Source: an uncultured Anaeroplasmataceae bacterium (lineage in GTDB: Bacteria; Bacillota_I; Bacilli_A; Acholeplasmatales; Anaeroplasmataceae). Taken from it: DNA of 39,967 nt. The notes under the pieces were generated by a model. It did not search any database. It was not told the DNA's origin and saw nothing but the letters and a program-made list of their open reading frames with translations. Location of the stretch: contig CALVBA010000011.1 in NCBI GenBank assembly GCA_944325695.1, forward strand, positions 1 through 39,967, in the 5' to 3' direction. Each line of letters starts with the position of its first letter. Within the stretch, counting starts at the first letter, position 1. Position numbers and translations under genes: made by a program. Below are positions 998-30,991 of the stretch, in pieces.

Positions 998-1026
998 TTG
1001 ACAATATACGCTTTTTTTTATATAAT
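998..1026 (+). promoter_or_regulatory. consensus sigma-A promoter of the riboswitch operon
   Basis: TTGACA at 998-1003 and TATAAT at 1021-1026 are separated by exactly 17 bases, a perfect housekeeping promoter. Transcription should begin near 1033, about 20 bases before the conserved riboswitch core. The transcript is therefore probably initiated strongly, with control exerted afterwards by the riboswitch and terminator. Confidence 0.85.
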
Positions 1027-1045
1027 TTTATTAGAAAAAAGAATA

Positions 1046-1117
1046 ATTTCCAAAGGCAAAACTAAAGCAATTTAGTGACGCAAAACTATAGGGTCCTAGG
1101 ATGGATAGCCAGCTGCA
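1046..1117 (+). promoter_or_regulatory. c-di-GMP-I (GEMM-I) riboswitch aptamer
   Basis: The conserved GEMM-I core is readable. GGCAAA (1055-1060) comes first. A 6-bp P2 helix follows, ACTAAA (1061-1066) with TTTAGT (1071-1076), capped by a GCAA GNRA tetraloop. Next is GACGCAAA (1077-1084). P3 is formed by CTAT (1086-1089) and ATAG (1105-1108), with the AGGGTC...GGATGG receptor-like strands between them, then CC at 1109-1110. The apical part of P3 is unusually short. The aptamer lies directly downstream of a consensus promoter and directly upstream of an intrinsic terminator, the expected layout for cyclic di-GMP control by transcription termination. The family is well established; the identification here is by motif only. 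Confidence 0.88.
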
Positions 1118-1136
1118 CTTCGTTGCAGTTTTTTTT
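1111..1136 (+). terminator. riboswitch expression-platform terminator
   Basis: AGCTGCA (1111-1117) pairs with TGCAGTT (1124-1130, one G-T pair) around a six-base loop, followed by a run of T to 1136. The 5' arm starts immediately after the aptamer's last conserved CC. Closure of the aptamer base could therefore compete with this hairpin, which would make the switch ON with ligand. That polarity is an inference from the overlap. Confidence 0.85.
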
Positions 1137-1161
1137 ATTATATTTGGAAGGGGTTGAGATG

Positions 1162-4100
1162 ATGAAGCGTAAAACATTGATGTTATTTTTAAGTTTAGGG
1201 CTAATGATATTAACCCTATCAGGTATTGTTTTTGGTCATTTTGTTTATTATAAAGGAAATGATTTTTCAGGAAATACAATTACGATTAAAAATACCTCAA
1301 TTATCAATCCTGCTTCATTAGAAGCTACTTTCAACGAACCTGGAGATTCTTTTGAGTTTATTTTTGGAATTAATAACGAAGATGATACAAACTATAAGGT
1401 AGATTTTAGTTTATCAAGTAGTACAACGATTTTAAACGAACAATTAATGCAAATGATTTATGTGTATCAAAATGATGTTTATTGTGGACTTTTAAATGAT
1501 TTTGTTGGTATCGGTAGTACATCTTTACCACAAAGTAGTTATGTTTTTAAAAATAGTATCAAAAATGAGGCTATTAAAATTAAATTAGAGTTGCATAACG
1601 GTGCTTATGAATTTACAGAAAATACATTGGTATTAAATGTAAATGCTGATGTTAAAACTTTAAATACCCAAACATATAGTGTTGTTTCCACATATGAAGA
1701 ATTAAGACAAGCAATTAACGCCACAAAACAGCTAAATAAAACGATTATATTAAATGGGGATATTACAGTTTCAAACGATCTTTCAATTTCTAATAATGCA
1801 ACAATTGATCTAAATGGATATAGTTTAATTTTAAATGCTAATATCAATTTAAATGAAAATTTAACAGATTTTATTGTTTCTATAATCGATAGTGAAAAAT
1901 TATATCAAATTAGTGGAACAGGAACTTTTATTATAAATGCTAGTCAAGCATTCTTAAAATGTGACTATGACATTTCTTCTTTTATCAATGTTTTATCATA
2001 TAATGAAAATACGTTAATAGACACTTTAAATACATACTTAACTAAAGAAGATTATGTAATTAGTCAGAATAATATAGATATATTAAAATCTTACAAAGCA
2101 TATCTTGGAGTTAATGGATTTAGTTTTACTACAAGTAATGGTTCTGTTACTAATGGAATTTTGGATGTTAGTACGGTCACATCATTTCAAGTTGTGGAAC
2201 TAAGTTTTCAAACAACAGCAAATAGCTATAAAAAAGCGATTAAAGTTTATCCAAATTCAGATGCTACGACAATTTTAAATACTATTTTAAACACTGATTT
2301 GAAGCATTTATATTATTATAGTAGTAATCAAGTTCAAGTAACAAACGATTTATTCTTACCAACTGCGCTAAAACAGTATAATGCAGTTATTTCATGGTAC
2401 AGTTCAAATAGTGACATTTTAACTAGTGATGGTAAGACATCACAAACTGGACAAGGGTCGGTTTCTCTACGAGCAACGATTAAAATTAATAATCAAGTTT
2501 TAACATACGATTTTAATTTAACAGTCATGAAACAAGATGATAAGATGCGATTACAATATCTTATCTCGAAAATTAGCCCAATTGTAATAGAAGGATTATA
2601 TGAATCAAATGGTAAAACATTACCAACAGCTAATGATTATACAAATTATACTAGTGGAGAATCATTAGGAATTGAAGATATTCAATATCAATTAAATAGT
2701 GCCTATTATTATTTAACATTTAATACGGCTAATAATTTACTTTATTTAAATCAAGTTACTTTCCAAAAATATGCGGTTATTCAAATTCAAGCTACTTTTG
2801 ATAGCGGTAATGTTGAAGAGGGAAGTATCAATATTGAAATTCGTTTAAGCCATAGTTCAGAACTACAAACGCTAGTTTATGATTATGTTCAAAATTATTT
2901 AAATAGTGTTGATGTTTTAGCAAATATTTTACAAACAAGAGATCAAGTTGGAATTTTAAATGAAAATGGAGATTTCTTGATGGTTGATAGCTATATGGGA
3001 ATTAAACTTTCTTATGCTATTTCAACAGCTACTTATGGCGATATCATCACTTTAGTTGAAGAAGATGGTTTAACAAAAGTCTGTGTTGATTTAACAAAAT
3101 TAAAATTAACAACTAGACGTGTTCCAATAACAGTTAATATTGTTATTGATAATGAAATTGCTGTTTCTAAAGATTTACATTTTAATGTGCCTGGAGCTTT
3201 AACAAAAGATAATTTAAGCATTACAACGACAAATCAATTAAACATGCTTTACAATGTAAAGTTACAAGCGATGCAGCAATTAGCTACTTCTGCTACTTAT
3301 GATGGAAGTAAAAGCTTAAGTGATATTACTCTTACGGAAGTTTTAAATTTAAAACCATATTTATTAACTTATGATGCTGAAAATACGCGTTTATTACGCT
3401 TTGAACGTGGAGAAAATGACGATTTAGTAGACTATTATGATTTATCAACATTTATCCATTTAATATCATGGGCTCAACAAACGACAGTAAGCGATATTCC
3501 TTCTGATGTAATCAAGAGTATTCCACAAAAATTTAGATGGATTCAATCAGATGGAGCAGAAACCTTAAGCGATGGTGAAATTACTGTTATTTTAGAATAT
3601 AGTGGTCGTTATTCATTCTTCCAAAATCAATTTTTAAAATATATTAATGTTGGAGATAATAAATTAAGTTCAAGTGATATTTTAAGTTTAACTAACTTAT
3701 TAGTTGATGCCAACTTTTCAAAATTGATTACATGGGCAACTTCTACAACAACAAATATTGTAAGTGATATAATTGATACCGATTTAGGATCATTAGTTGA
3801 CTATCCAAATGATTCTAAAGCAACAATTAATAACTTAGAAGAAGAAGTTATTAATTACTATGTTTATTCACAACTTAATGCATATTATGATTCTTTTGTG
3901 GAAACTTGGCAACAAGTTATAACACGCTTAGATCAAACAGCTAGTAAGCAAACGTTTGTCGATCCAATCTTTCCAATGATTATCTCTTGGATGAATACTA
4001 CTAATGATGTTAATTTAAAAGATCAAATTGATGCTGCATTTGGAGCAGGAACAACCGATTTATTGTTTGCTGATAGTGGTATTACAAGTTTTGCAAGTGA

Positions 4101-5790
4101 GTATACAAAAAACTTATTAGGAACAAAATATAATTCTACTTCGCAAAATGAATGGAATGTTTTAAAATACTATGGTTATACGATTATGGGAGTAACTGAT
4201 GTTGGAATCTTTGTTAATGAAGATGGTACAGATCGTTATACTGCTGGAACAGCCACAAGCGGAGTATCAGAAAGTTCTAGTTCATGGGGAACAACATACG
4301 TTCGTCTAACTTCAGCTTATCAAACAACATTAACAAATGCGATTAATGCAGATAGTTTTTATACTAATATTGCAACAGTTTTATCATGGAGTCAAAGTAC
4401 AACTAACATTGCAACAGCATATAGTTCAGTTTTACAAATTCAATTAGGAACAGCTATTGAAGATGGATTTACGATTACTCTTGATGAGAAAACATCAGAT
4501 GGGAAAATTACTGTATCTTATATGGAATATTTAGTTATTGCTAATTTCATTAATCTACAATTACCATCCAAAGTTAATTCTTCACTAAAATCGACTATAG
4601 CAGATGTTTATTTAACTGATTTATCATTAGATTTAACATTTGCTGATAATGTTATTTCAAGCCAGGATAATATGAGTCTTTTAAACAGTATTTCAGGTGG
4701 AGTTTTAGAAGATTTTAACACGATTATGGCAGCAATTACAGCTGATAAAGATCACAATCCTGAAACATGTACTAGTGGTGATTGTCCAACGTATATTGAT
4801 GGTTTAAAAACAATTAGTCAAGACGAGTATAACTATGTTATTAACCATTTTTCAAATGTTAGTGGATTTGCAGAAGCTTTTGCACAATTTGTTGTTTTAC
4901 CGGATAATGATGATCGTAGTTTAGATACTGATGAGATTAATAATTTACAAACATATATTAAAGATATTCTTGGATATACCGATGGAAGTTATTTCAATTT
5001 TATCGTATTAAATACATTTGATACAGATGATACGCGATTATTCAATGACATGATTAAATATTTTATTAACTTAAATGATTTATCGCTAGTTGGTTCGGAA
5101 AATCAAAAATTAATTGAGAATTCTGAATATGCAAATGAAATTTTTGAAACAGTATCAGATAGTATCGTTAATAGTATTCAACAATTATCTCTAAATTACA
5201 TCGCATTGACTGATGTAGAATCAATTAGAAATTTTATTAATTTAGAATATTTAGATTTACACGGTAATACCGATTTAGATAATATTTATGGTTTAACAAT
5301 CTTAGATAATGGAAAATTACGATATTTAAATATTAGTAATACAGGAATTAACTCATTATACCTACAACCATTATTAACTCGTTTATATGTTAACTATACA
5401 AGCATTAATACTACTTCACAGCCAATTTATATATATAGTGTGGAAGGAATAGAGTATCTATTTATAATGGATTCTTCAATTACATCAGATGATGTTGCAG
5501 CTATGAATTATTTATATATGTTAAAAGAAATAACAAGTATATCATATAAATACATGCAATTACCAACTAAGATTTATACTTTAGAAGGCGGAAATGTTGT
5601 AAGTGTTGATGTTGAATGGGATGCGATTAGTGGTTATATAAGAATTGAGAATTTAGCTAATAACTTAGTTCGTGCAACAAGAACTAACACAGGGGCATCA
5701 CATGCCGTTTTAAGTGCTACAGTAAATTATAATACAGGAAGTTTTACACGCTATTTTGAAATTGATTTAACAGAAATTACGAATGTATGA
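1162..5790 (+). CDS. giant exported Ig/LRR surface protein, riboswitch-controlled
   Basis: A protein of about 1542 aa. The ATG at 1162, with GGAAGGGG at 1146-1153 eight bases upstream, is chosen over the adjacent ATG at 1159. The same frame extends back to a GTG at 1075, but that lies inside the riboswitch. The N-terminus is Lys/Arg-rich followed by one hydrophobic segment (about 5-28), a signal peptide or anchor. Residues about 170-230 carry a DLNGYSL-type beta-helix-like segment. Residues about 370-457 resemble an atrophied Ig-like domain (WYSSNSDILTSDGK). Residues about 765-1080 contain four copies of a motif around [ST]W..xTT (Trp 770, 858, 943, 1076). Leucine-rich repeats occupy about 1340-1455, then a beta-rich end. 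There is no LPXTG motif or C-terminal membrane helix. It probably acts outside the cell as an adhesin or matrix protein; the ligand is unknown. It ends in TGA, four bases before the next ribosome binding site's core. Confidence 0.85.
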   Translation: MKRKTLMLFLSLGLMILTLSGIVFGHFVYYKGNDFSGNTITIKNTSIINPASLEATFNEPGDSFEFIFGINNEDDTNYKVDFSLSSSTTILNEQLMQMIYVYQNDVYCGLLNDFVGIGSTSLPQSSYVFKNSIKNEAIKIKLELHNGAYEFTENTLVLNVNADVKTLNTQTYSVVSTYEELRQAINATKQLNKTIILNGDITVSNDLSISNNATIDLNGYSLILNANINLNENLTDFIVSIIDSEKLYQISGTGTFIINASQAFLKCDYDISSFINVLSYNENTLIDTLNTYLTKEDYVISQNNIDILKSYKAYLGVNGFSFTTSNGSVTNGILDVSTVTSFQVVELSFQTTANSYKKAIKVYPNSDATTILNTILNTDLKHLYYYSSNQVQVTNDLFLPTALKQYNAVISWYSSNSDILTSDGKTSQTGQGSVSLRATIKINNQVLTYDFNLTVMKQDDKMRLQYLISKISPIVIEGLYESNGKTLPTANDYTNYTSGESLGIEDIQYQLNSAYYYLTFNTANNLLYLNQVTFQKYAVIQIQATFDSGNVEEGSINIEIRLSHSSELQTLVYDYVQNYLNSVDVLANILQTRDQVGILNENGDFLMVDSYMGIKLSYAISTATYGDIITLVEEDGLTKVCVDLTKLKLTTRRVPITVNIVIDNEIAVSKDLHFNVPGALTKDNLSITTTNQLNMLYNVKLQAMQQLATSATYDGSKSLSDITLTEVLNLKPYLLTYDAENTRLLRFERGENDDLVDYYDLSTFIHLISWAQQTTVSDIPSDVIKSIPQKFRWIQSDGAETLSDGEITVILEYSGRYSFFQNQFLKYINVGDNKLSSSDILSLTNLLVDANFSKLITWATSTTTNIVSDIIDTDLGSLVDYPNDSKATINNLEEEVINYYVYSQLNAYYDSFVETWQQVITRLDQTASKQTFVDPIFPMIISWMNTTNDVNLKDQIDAAFGAGTTDLLFADSGITSFASEYTKNLLGTKYNSTSQNEWNVLKYYGYTIMGVTDVGIFVNEDGTDRYTAGTATSGVSESSSSWGTTYVRLTSAYQTTLTNAINADSFYTNIATVLSWSQSTTNIATAYSSVLQIQLGTAIEDGFTITLDEKTSDGKITVSYMEYLVIANFINLQLPSKVNSSLKSTIADVYLTDLSLDLTFADNVISSQDNMSLLNSISGGVLEDFNTIMAAITADKDHNPETCTSGDCPTYIDGLKTISQDEYNYVINHFSNVSGFAEAFAQFVVLPDNDDRSLDTDEINNLQTYIKDILGYTDGSYFNFIVLNTFDTDDTRLFNDMIKYFINLNDLSLVGSENQKLIENSEYANEIFETVSDSIVNSIQQLSLNYIALTDVESIRNFINLEYLDLHGNTDLDNIYGLTILDNGKLRYLNISNTGINSLYLQPLLTRLYVNYTSINTTSQPIYIYSVEGIEYLFIMDSSITSDDVAAMNYLYMLKEITSISYKYMQLPTKIYTLEGGNVVSVDVEWDAISGYIRIENLANNLVRATRTNTGASHAVLSATVNYNTGSFTRYFEIDLTEITNV

Positions 5791-5803
5791 TAGGAGGGAT
5801 ATT

Positions 5804-8767
5804 ATGAAAAAAATAGTGCTTGGATTAATAATTTTGCTTTCTTTTGTGAGCGTATCATACGCCTATTTTACCTATAATATCCTTTCTAATGACATTAATG
5901 TTACATATCAACCGACAAGCAAAAGTTTGATTGTTGTCGATGAACAATCAATTTATGATTATGCTAACTATTATTACTTAAATCAAGGGGAAGCTAATTT
6001 ATCTAGTGGTATTGCCACTAAAAAATTTACAATGCAACTTTCTAAAGATATTCAATTACATGATGATTTAATTATCACAAGTGATTGTCATATCGATTTA
6101 AATAACTTTAAATTAGATTTAAATGGTCATAGTTTACAAGTGAAAAATCAATTTTATGGTACTGTAAATATATATAATGGGTCAATAATTGATAATACTT
6201 CAACATTTAATATTATTGTTGATACTCCACATGCTTATGTATACTTTCCTGAAGATATAACACCAAATGTTGTCAATATTTCTACCGATGCGTTTTTAGA
6301 TAGTGTTTTCAAATATATTTACTTTTACATGCATAATTATCAATTATACAATGTTGAAGATTTATTAAATATGCAGACACTAGATACAAATCGTCATTGT
6401 ACATTACAACATACCGGAGACAATCCATGTATTTATACTTATACCGATCTAGAGTTAATAACAAATTTTAAATCATATGATGATCTAAAAATAACTTATC
6501 AATCAAAAGATGAAAGTATACTAACTAATAGTGGAAAAATTGTTAGTAATGGTAATGTCGTACTAACTGTAAATCTTTCTTATCTAGATGTAGTAAAATC
6601 ACAAGATTTTAATATTCATGTTGTTAATTCTACTGAATATGCTCAAGCAAGTGTACTTTCGTTATTAGAGTGGTTTTCATTATACGAATCATACGATGAA
6701 AACAATACTTTTACAAAATACGTTTTTACAAGTAGTTTTATGTTACCTGTTAATGATAATTATTTTGGGGGAACCTTTATTTATACAGTTTACGATGAAA
6801 ATGATGGAGTTATTGCAACTAGTGAAACACAAAATGATTATTTTAAATTAAGCGGTGATGGTAACTACTATATTGTAAGCTTAAATAAATATGTATTTAA
6901 AATGTCAATCCAAAATGATACATATACATCTGACAAATTTGCTATTGAAGGGAACTTCCAAAATGTAATCGTTGATGATAGTGCGTATGCATTAGGGGTT
7001 TTACGCGAATTATACGGCGATAGAATTATTATTTCTGAAGATGTAAGAGGATATGAAGGATATACAAGCATAACTTTATTAACTGAAAATGTATCAGCCA
7101 CATATAATCGTTTAGAATCTTTAGATTATAGTTTAATTAATAATGATGATGGAACATATGAAATTTCTGGAGATATTTTACGTGTTTCAGCTAGTAGAAC
7201 ATTAGATCCAAATATTACACAAAACGTATTTTTACAAGTAACATTTACTTTTAAATTAGAAGATGGCCAATTAGAACAAACTGTTATAACATTACAAGTG
7301 CCAATTTCATTTGAAACTCAAGATAGTGGTACAGGAATTGATGATTTCTCGCCATATTATGTATATTTCAATCGAGAATTTGCAACTTTCACTAATAACT
7401 ACACGTATCGAGATTTTTCAATTCCGTTATCATTTGGGTCACGTTTTCCTGTTTATAAATGGCGTATTTTTAATAGTGCAAACGAGGAAGTAACAGATTT
7501 AGGTTTATTTACAATAACGATTTTATATCAAAATCGACATTACAATATGGCTTCTTTGACATACGCTGAATTAAAGGCGATGGTCGAATCGGGAACGGCC
7601 AAAACATATGTCGATATAGATCAATTTAAAATTTCAAATTTAGATGAAACATATTATTTTGCCTATATCCCATGTTTTGATGTTGGTGGAGAAATCGTTT
7701 ATGATAATAGTTTTGTAAGCGTTGATACTTATCCATTCGTTAGTGAATTAATTATTCCAGGAATTGTCCGTTATTATTCTGAAGGAAATAGCTATGGTGA
7801 AGAAGCATTTACAAGTTCTGTTTTATATAAAGAAATTTTTGAATTGTTTAATTCTAACACGACATATGTCGATTTAGAAACTTTTATAATTGCTTCACAA
7901 TTACCACAACATATTGAAGCATTAGATTTTAGTAGTCGTTCAGATATTACTAGTTATAAAGGAATTAATTTATTAACGGGATTAGAATCTTTAAACTTAA
8001 GTGGTGTTAAATTGGGAAGTAATAATTTGATGAACTCATCAAATCAAATTACAGAAATTACGTATATATCACAAATGACTAGTCTTCGAATTCTAAATTT
8101 AACAGGGACAGTTATTAGTGATTACATCGGTTCAAATAACACAACTATGCCATATCCAAGTGGATCAAATAACCAATTCTTAGCTACACTATCAAATTTA
8201 ACATCTTTAGAAGAATTGTATTTAGCAAATAATGAAATCTATGAATTTTCTGATTTAACATTGTTCCCAAATCTAAAGAAAGTTACAGTTTTAGGTAATA
8301 CATTTACCTCTTCATCTTCATGGATTGGTGGAGTTTTCGAAGCAATCGTTAATGCTATTTATGGGACACAAGGAATTACGAACCAATCAACATTTATTTT
8401 ATTACGTGGTAATGGTGTTGAATTAGATTATCAAGATACTGGGGAAGAAAATGAGATTATTTCAGCATTAATGAATATTGAATATCAAGATTATCTTCCT
8501 ATTGGAATGGATATTTCTTATGCTTATAGTAATTTTTCAACAAGTTTATCTGATTATGGATTGAGTGCAACGACAACTATTTCAACAAACGGGTCTAATT
8601 ATAATCTTCACAGTGGAACATTAAGTTTTGGTTATGTAGGTGATGCTACTACTTCAACACAATTTTATATAAATTTACGTTATGTGTATAGCGGAGGTAT
8701 CTTCGGTGGAGGAGATCAAAACATCGATTATCGCGTTAATTTTAGAATTACGAGAATAGAGGTGTAA
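5804..8767 (+). CDS. second giant exported Ig/LRR surface protein
   Basis: A 987-aa protein, start chosen at the ATG at 5804 because AGGAGG sits at 5792-5797. The N-terminus is a short MKK hydrophobic segment ending SVSYA|YFT at residues 16-23, resembling the signal peptides of TasA/SipW-type matrix proteins. A DLNGHSL beta-helix-like segment (about 74-130) and an Ig-like segment (about 187-275) follow in the same order as in the preceding gene. Leucine-rich repeats lie at about 702-842, and a Gly/Tyr-rich beta domain closes the protein. The two giants therefore look like diverged paralogues with a common architecture. There is no sortase signal or transmembrane anchor at the C-terminus. It is co-transcribed with its neighbours, with a 13-base gap to the previous stop. 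Adhesion or matrix function is inferred from architecture only. Confidence 0.85.
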   Translation: MKKIVLGLIILLSFVSVSYAYFTYNILSNDINVTYQPTSKSLIVVDEQSIYDYANYYYLNQGEANLSSGIATKKFTMQLSKDIQLHDDLIITSDCHIDLNNFKLDLNGHSLQVKNQFYGTVNIYNGSIIDNTSTFNIIVDTPHAYVYFPEDITPNVVNISTDAFLDSVFKYIYFYMHNYQLYNVEDLLNMQTLDTNRHCTLQHTGDNPCIYTYTDLELITNFKSYDDLKITYQSKDESILTNSGKIVSNGNVVLTVNLSYLDVVKSQDFNIHVVNSTEYAQASVLSLLEWFSLYESYDENNTFTKYVFTSSFMLPVNDNYFGGTFIYTVYDENDGVIATSETQNDYFKLSGDGNYYIVSLNKYVFKMSIQNDTYTSDKFAIEGNFQNVIVDDSAYALGVLRELYGDRIIISEDVRGYEGYTSITLLTENVSATYNRLESLDYSLINNDDGTYEISGDILRVSASRTLDPNITQNVFLQVTFTFKLEDGQLEQTVITLQVPISFETQDSGTGIDDFSPYYVYFNREFATFTNNYTYRDFSIPLSFGSRFPVYKWRIFNSANEEVTDLGLFTITILYQNRHYNMASLTYAELKAMVESGTAKTYVDIDQFKISNLDETYYFAYIPCFDVGGEIVYDNSFVSVDTYPFVSELIIPGIVRYYSEGNSYGEEAFTSSVLYKEIFELFNSNTTYVDLETFIIASQLPQHIEALDFSSRSDITSYKGINLLTGLESLNLSGVKLGSNNLMNSSNQITEITYISQMTSLRILNLTGTVISDYIGSNNTTMPYPSGSNNQFLATLSNLTSLEELYLANNEIYEFSDLTLFPNLKKVTVLGNTFTSSSSWIGGVFEAIVNAIYGTQGITNQSTFILLRGNGVELDYQDTGEENEIISALMNIEYQDYLPIGMDISYAYSNFSTSLSDYGLSATTTISTNGSNYNLHSGTLSFGYVGDATTSTQFYINLRYVYSGGIFGGGDQNIDYRVNFRITRIEV

Positions 8768-8770
8768 GGT

Positions 8771-9376
8771 ATGAAAAAAACATTACATTTAGGATTAATT
8801 ATTATATTAATTTGTTTAACATTTTCGGTATCTTACGCCTTATATACCTTCGTTAAGACCCTTCCTGAGTTAGATGGTAATGTAGGACATTTAGAATTTT
8901 CATCTGAATTATATAAAGGGCAAGATTTTGATTTTGATGGAATTATTGATATTGATGAATCAGGAGAAGAAATCTATAATCCACTTGCAACCGGAATCAC
9001 TTTAACCAATATTTATCCAAGTCAAGTTTTGACATACCGTTTAAATATTCAAAATACTGGCTCAACAATTATGAGTTTCAAATTAGAATTAGATGAAGGC
9101 ATTTCAAGCAATCAAAATTTAAAAGTATTTAGTATCAAATGTAATGATACCCCATTTTTCTTATATAACGTGAGTAGTTCTAATAAGATTTTTTATGAAT
9201 ATGAAGGGAAAATCTTACCAAATGAAAGTACTTATGTTGATATCAAAATAACATTTGAAACGTATGATGTATTACAAGAAAATGGGATAAATTTGACATT
9301 TGAAGAATATCAAACATATCAAGGAATAAGCATTCCAACGACTAATTTATTTAATACAGTAGGAGTTTCAGTTTAA
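8771..9376 (+). CDS. TasA-like exported protein (tentative)
   Basis: A 201-aa protein starting three bases after the previous stop, with GAGGTGTAAGGT as ribosome binding region. The signal segment (about 4-23) ends SVSYA|LYT, nearly identical at its end to the signal of the gene before. The mature part has an Asp-rich patch (DFDFDGIIDIDESGEE, about 54-69). It then has Ig-fold-like stretches: YPSQVLTYRLNIQNTG near residue 90 and a later LPNESTYVDIKITFE near 150. A pro-x-ser/asp turn followed by NTG is the pattern seen in TasA, camelysin and related biofilm-fibre proteins. The length (about 200) also fits. No sipW-like signal peptidase is encoded in the window. The family call is an inference; the export signal is clearer. 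Confidence 0.6.
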   Translation: MKKTLHLGLIIILICLTFSVSYALYTFVKTLPELDGNVGHLEFSSELYKGQDFDFDGIIDIDESGEEIYNPLATGITLTNIYPSQVLTYRLNIQNTGSTIMSFKLELDEGISSNQNLKVFSIKCNDTPFFLYNVSSSNKIFYEYEGKILPNESTYVDIKITFETYDVLQENGINLTFEEYQTYQGISIPTTNLFNTVGVSV

Positions 9377-9468
9377 ATTATATCTTAATAAAACCACATC
9401 AATTTATTAAAAAAAATAATAGAAAAAGCATTAAAAAAATGATATTATAAATTAAGGAGTTGGTTAAA

Positions 9469-11784: not shown

Positions 11785-11813
11785 TTGACAATCCACAAAT
11801 TTCATATTATAAT
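11785..11813 (+). promoter_or_regulatory. consensus sigma-A promoter of the GGDEF gene
   Basis: TTGACA at 11785-11790 and TATAAT at 11808-11813 have a 17-base spacer. Transcription should start near 11820, leaving a leader of about 55 bases in which I see no riboswitch motif. Confidence 0.85.
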
Positions 11814-11875: not shown

Positions 11876-13822
11876 GTGAAAAAGAAACTATTTCACGATT
11901 TAAGACGAATGGTAATTGGTATAATTATATTAATGATATTATGTAGTACTGTTATTGTAACAATATTTAATATTGGAACAAATAAAAGAGAAATTGAAAC
12001 CATGTATAATCAAATGGTAGAAAAATATGAAGTAAGTAAAGAAAATTATAAATCTAAAATCGATTTGTTTCGTGAAGATTACTTAAATCGTTGTTTTGCT
12101 CTTTCATACTTTTTAAGTTCTAAAAATTCATTGATTGATAATTCTGAATTAAATGAATTACGAAGACTGATGGAAGTTAGTTCGATTAATTTAATTGATT
12201 TTGATAATAAAGTTGTGCAAAGCACGGATGAAAGTTTAAAAAATATTGATTTTGATGATGTAGCTGAATATGACGATTTTGTTTCATTTTTAGCTGATGA
12301 TGAAGTAGAATCATATTATTCATATGTAAAAAGACCATTTCATAATTTAGAAGATGAAGCTTCATATTTTGCTGTAAAAATTGAGTCAAACATATATCAC
12401 GCAATTTTATTAGAAGTAAATTATAATGTTTTCGGAGATATTGTAAGAGAAAATTCTCTAGCAACTTTAGTAAAACAGACCGTAAAAGTTTCTGGAAATG
12501 AATATTTTTTAATGGATGTGACAACAAAAGAAATTGTTGGAATTAGTAAAGAATCCGAAAATATGATTGGTGATTTAGTTAATAATGCCGATTTATTTAT
12601 CAAATTATCAAATAAAAATTCGATGAGGTTTATTAATATTGATGGTAAATTTTACTTTTCTTCAAGTTATATCATTGAAGGACAAGTTCTAGGGATACTT
12701 ATTAGTACCAGTAAAACGATTAATGATATTATTTTATCGATTATTTTAATTGCTATTTCGTTATCTATTGTATCTATTGTATCTCTAATATACACTAATT
12801 CTTTTTTAAAACACGAAGTATTTAATGATTTTATGAAGATTGAAAATTCTGTAAGTGAATTATTATCTGGAAAATTAAATGTGAAGTTTTATGATTTTAA
12901 ATATGAGGAATTCAAAAAAATATCTGAAGCATTGAAACTTTTGCAAAAAAGTTATTTAGAAAAAAATTCACGTATTACTCGTTTGACACAAGCTATTTCT
13001 AAAAATATTGCCGCTTTTGAGGTTATCTATGGTATTGATGTTTTCTTATCTAATAATATGCAGGCGTTATTACATTTAACAGATAAAGAATGGTATGATA
13101 TTTATCATGATATTGATAAATTCAAAAACTTCATTTTATATTTAAAATCATTAGAAGATGAAAATAAAATTATAAATTATAATGGTCTATATTTAGAAAT
13201 TGACGTTGTAGAGCAAGAAAACTCTTTTAACGGGATAATTAAAAATCGTACAGATGAAATTTTAAATAAATTAGAATTAGAGCAAAAAATAATTCATTTT
13301 AAAAGCGAAAGTGAAACTGATCCATTAACTAATTTATTAAATCGCAAAGGATTTACCGCGATTGTTTCAGATTTAATTAAAACAAATCAACGGGGAATTT
13401 TATTTGAGTTTGATTTGGACCATTTTAAACGTGTTAATGATAGTGAAGGACATTTGGTTGGAGATAAAGTTTTACAAATATTTTCTAATGTATTAAAAAA
13501 AGTATTTGTTAATAAATCTACAATTGCTCGAATTGGTGGCGACGAATTTTTAATATTTATTGATGTTTATTTTGATAAATCATTAATTGAACAAAAAATG
13601 AAGTTATTTTATGAAACACTTCATTGTGATTTAAAATACTATATTGAACGTTATGAGGTTTCTTCAAGTGTTGGTATAGCTTATTTTAGCGATGAAGTTA
13701 ATTCATATCATATGTTATATAAAGCATGTGATGCTGCATTGTATAATGCAAAAGAGTTTGGAAGAAATAATTATTCAGTTTATAAACTTATTAAAAATAA
13801 AAATAAAACTCAGTCCAAATAA
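11876..13822 (+). CDS. membrane-bound diguanylate cyclase (GGDEF)
   Basis: A 648-aa sensor protein that starts at GTG, with a GGGGGT ribosome binding site eight bases upstream. Topology: a first membrane helix (about 12-34), an extracytoplasmic sensor region (about 35-278) and a second helix (about 282-307). Then come a short HAMP-like linker, a weak PAS-like segment (about 375-455) and a GGDEF domain (about 478-640). The catalytic RIGGDEF motif is intact (GGDEF at 554-558), with the DPLTNLLNR motif at the domain start and a DLDHFKRVND metal/substrate segment. It should make cyclic di-GMP from two GTP at the membrane. The RxxD inhibitory site normally found before the motif is absent, so allosteric product inhibition through that site is unlikely. 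It has its own promoter and terminator. The ligand sensed is unknown. Confidence 0.92.
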   Translation: MKKKLFHDLRRMVIGIIILMILCSTVIVTIFNIGTNKREIETMYNQMVEKYEVSKENYKSKIDLFREDYLNRCFALSYFLSSKNSLIDNSELNELRRLMEVSSINLIDFDNKVVQSTDESLKNIDFDDVAEYDDFVSFLADDEVESYYSYVKRPFHNLEDEASYFAVKIESNIYHAILLEVNYNVFGDIVRENSLATLVKQTVKVSGNEYFLMDVTTKEIVGISKESENMIGDLVNNADLFIKLSNKNSMRFINIDGKFYFSSSYIIEGQVLGILISTSKTINDIILSIILIAISLSIVSIVSLIYTNSFLKHEVFNDFMKIENSVSELLSGKLNVKFYDFKYEEFKKISEALKLLQKSYLEKNSRITRLTQAISKNIAAFEVIYGIDVFLSNNMQALLHLTDKEWYDIYHDIDKFKNFILYLKSLEDENKIINYNGLYLEIDVVEQENSFNGIIKNRTDEILNKLELEQKIIHFKSESETDPLTNLLNRKGFTAIVSDLIKTNQRGILFEFDLDHFKRVNDSEGHLVGDKVLQIFSNVLKKVFVNKSTIARIGGDEFLIFIDVYFDKSLIEQKMKLFYETLHCDLKYYIERYEVSSSVGIAYFSDEVNSYHMLYKACDAALYNAKEFGRNNYSVYKLIKNKNKTQSK

Positions 13823-18013: not shown

Positions 18014-18042
18014 ATTATATTTTAAAAACGTACAAATGTCAA
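18014..18042 (-). promoter_or_regulatory. consensus promoter of the activase operon
   Basis: On the minus strand, TTGACA (18037-18042) and TATAAT (18014-18019) are separated by 17 bases, and the start codon is about 40 bases downstream. It diverges from the lipoprotein promoter about 60 bases away. Confidence 0.82.
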
Positions 18043-30164: not shown

Positions 30165-30851
30165 ATGAAGAGAGGTAAAAAATACGTTGAAGCTTCAAAA
30201 TTAGTTGATTCTAACGTTGCTTATTCTTTAACTGAAGCTTGCGAATTAGTTTGCAAAACTTCTGTTACTAAATTCGACGCTAGTGTTGATGCTGCATTCC
30301 GTTTAAACCTTGACCCTCGTAAAGCTGAACAAAACTTACGTGGAGCAATCGTGTTACCACATGGTACAGGAAAAACTCGCCGTGTTTTAGTTATCGCTAG
30401 AGGTGAAAAAGCTAAAGAAGCTGAAGCAGCTGGAGCTGATTACGTTGGAGATGTAGACTATATTAACAAAATTCAACAAGGTTGGTTTGAATTTGATATT
30501 ATGGTTGCTACACCAGATATGATGGCATCATTAGGACGTTTAGGACGCGTTTTAGGTCCTAAAGGATTAATGCCAAACCCAAAAACAGGAACTGTTACAA
30601 TGAATGTTGCTCAAGCAGTAACTGAAATTAAAAACGGTAAAGTTGAATACAGAGTTGATAAAGTTGGAAATATCCACTTACCAGTAGGAAAAGTATCTTT
30701 CGGTGCTGAAAAACTTGCTGAAAATATCAAAACTGTTTATGAAACTTTAGTGAAGGCTAGACCTTCAACTGTTAAAGGTTCTTTCGTTAAAAACATTAGC
30801 ATCTCATCAACAATGGGACCTGGTGTTAAAGTAAGCGAAGAAAACATGTAA
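30165..30851 (+). CDS. rplA: 50S ribosomal protein L1
   Basis: A 228-aa two-domain L1 protein. It starts [15 protein letters not shown] and carries the signature near residues 120-140 ([18 protein letters not shown]) in the hinge and second domain. It ends with the SSTMGPGVK strand. L1 binds the mobile stalk of 23S rRNA and is an autogenous repressor in many bacteria. TAGGAGGA is the ribosome binding site. No terminator is seen between it and the L10 leader. Confidence 0.98.
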
Positions 30852-30860
30852 TAATTTAAT

Positions 30861-30970
30861 ACTTTATGCCAAAGACATCAGGGGCGAAGGCTTAATAATC
30901 CTGACGAGGTGTATAAAGTGTCGATTTGACCTCTTTATGCAACTTTGGCATGAAGAGGTTTTATTTATTT
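30861..30970 (+). promoter_or_regulatory. L10 leader with attenuator upstream of rplJ
   Basis: The conserved L10-leader sequence is visible: AAGACATCAGGGGCGAAGG, then TTAATAATCCTGACGAGG, with TCAGG (30878-30882) pairing CCTGA (30900-30904). The upstream strand TTTATGCCAAAG (30863-30874) can pair with CTTTGGCATGAA (30943-30954, one G-T). That CTTTGGCATGAA segment overlaps the loop and 3' arm of a 12-bp terminator hairpin (30929-30940 with 30948-30959). The two pairings exclude each other, which is an attenuator read by the L10(L7/L12) complex in the Bacillus model. Confidence 0.88.
30929..30970 (+). terminator. L10-leader terminator hairpin
   Basis: ACCTCTTTATGC and GCATGAAGAGGT form 12 pairs (one G-T) around a seven-base loop, followed by TTTTATTTATTT. 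It is the termination half of the rplJ attenuator. Confidence 0.85.
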
Positions 30971-30991
30971 AAACTTATAGGAGGTGTCTTG

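Follow-up and report, generated by a model that had tools for sequence, protein, structure and literature searches.

Does cyclic di-GMP govern the giant exported proteins encoded near the start of this window (the whole stretch of 39,967 nucleotides analysed here, from a genome grouped by GTDB in the Acholeplasmatales), and if it does, are they turned on or off? We consider it fairly probable that the locus (Table 1) is a c-di-GMP-I transcriptional ON switch placed before an operon of SipW-exported giant proteins with an adhesive or matrix role, and that it forms a single unit within a wider Acholeplasmatales regulon. The aptamer match, the terminator overlap and its recurrence, the conservation of the operon, and the enzyme and SipW genes are observations; ligand binding, the direction of switching, the export route and the adhesion or matrix role are what we infer from them. 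Counting against this reading are the poor P1 and the A-C pair of the aptamer, the shortness of the terminator, a genome (G022) whose copy of the operon family has no riboswitch on its strand, the lack of a significant TasA match for protein 3 and the absence of a visible anchor such as LPXTG.

Table 1. Features of the riboswitch locus, numbered from the first nucleotide of the window.
Feature	Position	Strand	Remarks
Sigma-70-type promoter, TTGACA-17-TATAAT	998..1026	+	Perfect consensus
c-di-GMP-I riboswitch aptamer	1045..1120	+	Rfam RF01051, 51.5 bits
Intrinsic terminator	1111..1137	+	Takes its 5' arm (1111-1117) from the aptamer (3' strand of P3, and J1/3)
Shine-Dalgarno region of gene 1	1146..1153	+	Sequence
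Gene 1	1159..5790	+	1543-aa exported protein, Ig-like (aBig_2) domain, weak LRR
Gene 2	5804..8767	+	987-aa exported protein, internalin-type LRRs at about 700-855, SipW-like signal peptide (SYAYF)
Gene 3	8771..9376	+	Exported protein of 201 aa, a distant sibling to small proteins of SipW clusters
GGDEF gene, outside the operon	11876..13822	+	Membrane-bound protein, intact GGDEF motif, own perfect promoter

The leader opens with a promoter that an earlier note on the same DNA had called perfect, and so it is: both boxes match the consensus exactly (TTGACA at 998-1003 and TATAAT at 1021-1026, with a 17 nt spacer), in a window where three such promoters are found against 0.15 expected. The other two lie at 11785-11813 (+), before a GGDEF gene, and at 18014-18042 (-), before the gene of a BcrAD/BadF-type ATPase. 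The covariance search with the Rfam c-di-GMP-I model, which the earlier note had proposed, returned a match over model positions 1-87 of 87, with a score of 51.5 bits for a curated cut-off of 35 (E 2.3e-7). Elsewhere in the window, the Rfam model RF00557 marks an ordinary L10 ribosomal protein leader at 30851-30972 (70.5 bits), ahead of a gene block of the rplJ-rplL-rpoB-rpoC type. The elements from which a GEMM-I aptamer had been recognised are also in place, namely the GNRA loop of P2 (GCAA at 1067-1070) and the core GACGCAAA (1077-1084). When mapped by eye from published structures (PMC6274999 for position 20), the equivalents of G20, A47 and the ligand-contacting C (C92) fall at 1055, 1082 and 1116, respectively. 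As P1 is poor and one pair of P3 is A-C, this aptamer is weaker than those of most relatives, and the same two features would suit a decayed aptamer that has lost its response and leaves the operon at a fixed level of expression. We regard such decay as very improbable, since the core residues are intact, the score is well above the cut-off, and the identical A-C pair is found in relatives (L052, L123, L125 and L127). By its sequence, the riboswitch is an ordinary member of its class.

The ligand can be predicted from position 20. This genome and 60 relatives, 34 of which have sites, together hold 109 c-di-GMP-I sites; position 20 is G in 91 of them, as it is in the window (1055), and A in 17. 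By this G, the window aptamer is of the c-di-GMP type, and c-di-GMP is its predicted ligand. Recognition of a different cyclic dinucleotide (3',3'-cGAMP, for instance) could be argued from the 17 sites with A, a residue tied to cGAMP recognition through a G20A mutant (PMC6274999), but we accord it hardly any probability for a site with G, in a genome where GGDEF and EAL genes are abundant (8 GGDEF and 4 EAL matches, covering synthesis and degradation). The initial reading of a c-di-GMP-I riboswitch with its operon is supported, and the GGDEF protein encoded beyond the operon in the window is a possible source of the signal. The relatives with A at position 20 (L048, L051, L072, L096-L099, L118, L120-L122, L124, L126, L128 and L129 among the 17 sites) may sense cGAMP in addition to c-di-GMP or in its place.

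It is the terminator that speaks to the direction of switching. It had been described as abutting the aptamer; the hairpin and its T run are found, and they overlap the 3' end of the aptamer. The hairpin (1111-1130, AGCUGCA-CUUCGU-UGCAGUU, then the T run) is formed by pairing of 1111-1117 with 1124-1130 and is short (-7.7 kcal/mol); it is the only terminator-like site in positions 1-1300, where 0.1 would be expected. The strand common to both folds includes the base of P3 together with the ligand-contacting C. Because 1111-1117 belongs to both, the terminator and the ligand-bound aptamer are mutually exclusive, and an ON switch is therefore predicted. The overlap, counted where the stem that precedes a T run has 7 pairs or more and draws its 5' arm from the last 16 aptamer bases, occurs at 83 of the 109 sites, against a mean of 14 (8-20) when the downstream sequence was permuted in 25-base blocks, and a folding-based search found it at 77 of 109; these counts overstate the sample, since neither tandem copies nor the sites of related genomes are independent of one another. 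In the pilM GEMM riboswitch, which has the same geometry, the ligand prevents the terminator and the switch is ON (PMC9262584). The geometry of the terminator thus argues for the ON direction, on which the earlier note was silent, and the sequence is most likely that of a switch through which c-di-GMP turns surface proteins ON.

Some c-di-GMP-I riboswitches are nevertheless OFF switches, for example Cd1 of C. difficile (PMC9262584). An OFF switch at this locus, with c-di-GMP favouring the terminator and the surface operon made at low c-di-GMP, would find a parallel in lone GGDEF genes of relatives, whose terminators outside the aptamer would fit that direction. In the window, by contrast, the terminator is built with the 3' strand of the aptamer itself and is thus excluded when the aptamer is bound; we judge the OFF direction improbable here. 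As to the lone GGDEF genes themselves, they are of about 350 aa (L068, L113, L115 and L118; also L050 and L121) and their riboswitch terminators are separate from the aptamer; in L068, L113, L115 and L118 the terminators lie farther downstream, unlike those of the surface operons. From these few cases, it is possible that their riboswitches are OFF switches giving negative feedback.

In the ON switch that we favour, RNA polymerase would start near 1033. With the ligand absent, the 3' strand of P3 with the ligand-contacting C would pair with 1124-1130 to form the terminator, and the T run would end transcription; once c-di-GMP is bound, the strand would be kept in the aptamer, the terminator would be blocked and the three-gene operon would be transcribed. 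A different pairing is available to the leader, between UUUCCAAA (1047-1054) and UUUGGAAG (1143-1150, in the Shine-Dalgarno region of gene 1). It was considered as a second level of control and set aside, as 8 matches can arise randomly in so AT-rich a leader.

The three genes downstream, previously described as tightly spaced and as all encoding exported proteins, are separated by 13 and then 3 nt, and each product has an N-terminal hydrophobic signal segment. The start of gene 2 given in the ORF list (5783) was replaced by 5804, an ATG with a Shine-Dalgarno sequence. Given gaps of this size and the Shine-Dalgarno sequences, a single transcript for the three genes is likely; its 3' end is not fixed, since the stretch from gene 3 to the following gene, at 9460, shows nothing that resembles a terminator. 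The description of the giant proteins as LRR/Ig-like also holds. Protein 1 matches aBig_2 (1.6e-9), a domain found in all 5 members of its family and in 3 of the 6 members of the protein 2 family, and protein 2 matches LRR_4 (2.6e-6, barely over the cut-off), which is found in 5 of these 6. The profile of the protein 2 family matches internalins A and B (E about 1e-14), and also further structurally characterised LRR proteins, over residues 700-855 or so; the structure model of protein 2 is of low confidence (pLDDT 54), and is a hint only.

Protein 3 had been labelled TasA-like. It matches no family profile, including TasA/camelysin PF12389, for which there is no match in this genome, and its TasA-like status is thus not confirmed by sequence. 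The label is left with a weak match of fold, the best Foldseek match of a low-confidence model (pLDDT 57), itself only a hint, being the TasA fibre 8aur, below significance (E 4.1e-3, TM 0.34), and with distant siblings (23-25% identity) whose genes cluster with those of other small exported proteins, in one case together with SipW-type peptidases. Camelysin is weakly matched by two proteins neighbouring these siblings. Judged from the model, protein 3 is possibly TasA-like.

It can be soundly inferred that the operon builds a putative surface or matrix layer. The products would be exported via SipW-like signal peptides, and the giant Ig-like and internalin-type LRR proteins would then form the adhesive or matrix layer. 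Two SipW-type peptidases are encoded on contig C40 of this genome (TIGR02228 above the cut-off, NF046067 below its equivalog cut-off), and it is probably they that cleave the signal peptides of the operon. The riboswitch could also work as proposed and yet serve proteins for prey or host binding or for polymer uptake, and not for attachment or matrix: LRRs of the internalin type and Ig-like domains serve generally as binding modules, and large parts of proteins 1 and 2 have no recognised domain. We think this unlikely, as the output of c-di-GMP elsewhere in the regulon leads to SipW/TasA-like operons, which suggests matrix or fibres.

This wider regulon begins in the same genome. A second c-di-GMP-I site lies behind a GGDEF-EAL gene and before genes for exported and SipW-signal proteins, in an operon that probably continues on contig C40, with the order SipW, McrB-like AAA+ ATPase, DUF2357-like protein, another exported protein and second SipW; the join of contigs C46 and C40 is drawn from the gene order of relatives. 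When tandems are counted once, the 109 sites make up 98 leaders, of which 34 precede operons that have the SipW/TasA-like set, whole or in part, 19 precede operons with proteins of at least 1000 aa, and 14 precede GGDEF/EAL genes. The family queries used left 31 of the 98 leaders unassigned, and many of these also start with exported proteins. By a crude rule, the first gene behind the site encodes an exported protein in 61 of 94 cases; for genes upstream or on the opposite strand, the figure is 27 of 188.

The earlier note knew of no described system with this gene combination and suggested a search for the layout in related genomes. The combination proves not to be unique: the families of the window's own operon stand behind the same riboswitch in three other genomes (L084, L077 and L085), with identities of 33-23% for protein 1 and 35-24% for protein 2. 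L131 is truncated by the end of its contig, no riboswitch was found on the strand of the same operon family in G022, and L116 has none on the operon strand. On this comparison of sequences, the riboswitch-operon unit is genuine and conserved. The same kind of switch stands before similar surface or fibre operons across the order, and therefore c-di-GMP probably turns on a cell-surface layer in these bacteria.

Several other arrangements were seen around these sites. The McrB-like AAA+ ATPase and DUF2357-like protein adjoin SipW in 20 riboswitch-led SipW/TasA-like operons (L144, 916-4803; also L038, L033, L040, L046, L070 and others), and the pair is strongly conserved (A3, 52-56% identity). 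Up to four c-di-GMP-I riboswitches occur in tandem (L046, 1525-1977; L099, 1502-1829; L040, L070, L072, L076 and L097), mostly with a terminator for each copy. In L105 and L112 (G001 and G007), the site lies about 300 nt before a gene of 628 aa, followed by genes of 438 and 329 aa that resemble those of central-metabolism enzymes, with a terminator between. In L111, from a genome that is probably A. laidlawii (G054), the riboswitch leads a gene whose product exceeds 3976 aa and carries GLUG and Listeria-Bacteroides repeat motifs.

We tentatively propose a broader picture, whose chances seem to us slightly under even: an Acholeplasmatales c-di-GMP regulon in which a SipW-dependent coat of TasA-like fibres (with the AAA+/DUF2357 pair) and giant LRR/Ig-like proteins would all be switched on, and some cyclase genes switched off as feedback. 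If true, this would amount to a programme of surface attachment in a group with wall-less members. The bacterium of the window may itself not be wall-less, as its genome has two penicillin-binding transpeptidase domains. Signalling by c-di-GMP is almost unstudied in Mollicutes, and the regulon gives the GGDEF/EAL enzymes a direct, testable output. In A. laidlawii, 14 GGDEF/EAL proteins were noted in 2008 (PMC2408644) and riboswitches in general have been reported (PMC5289693), and according to a 2024 paper no other mollicute is known to use c-di-GMP (PMC11535214). Since G054 (probably A. laidlawii) carries four sites, the proposal lends itself to tests in a cultured laboratory species. Riboswitch-controlled adhesins are already known (PMC4933901, PMC7423583). 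In the open literature, we found no paper on c-di-GMP riboswitches in Acholeplasma and none that joins such a riboswitch with SipW or with SipW/TasA-like fibre operons; judged from this literature, the regulon has apparently not been described before.

The LRRs of protein 2 are of the type found in the Listeria internalins, but they are a short part (residues about 700-855) of a much longer protein, and no anchor such as LPXTG was seen in the operon proteins. SipW-dependent secretion of fibre proteins is known from tapA-sipW-tasA of Bacillus subtilis and sipW-bsaA of Clostridium perfringens (PMC9674648, PMC7395162), for which no riboswitch control is reported in the literature found; the present genome likewise encodes SipW-type peptidases, and the window operon has SipW-type signals but differs in having no sipW of its own and a third protein that is only possibly TasA. 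In pilM (GEMM-Ib) of Geobacter metallireducens, the terminator is likewise made from the aptamer 3' strand and sequesters the ligand-contacting C (PMC9262584), but pilM senses cGAMP, whereas the window site, with G at position 20, is of the c-di-GMP type. Bc2 of Bacillus thuringiensis, which precedes the gene for the cap/CbpA collagen adhesion protein (PMC4933901, PMC7423583), belongs to the same riboswitch class and also stands before a surface adhesion protein; there it is a collagen-binding protein in Bacillus, whereas the window has, in a member of the Acholeplasmatales, an operon for giant proteins of the Ig-like and LRR kinds.
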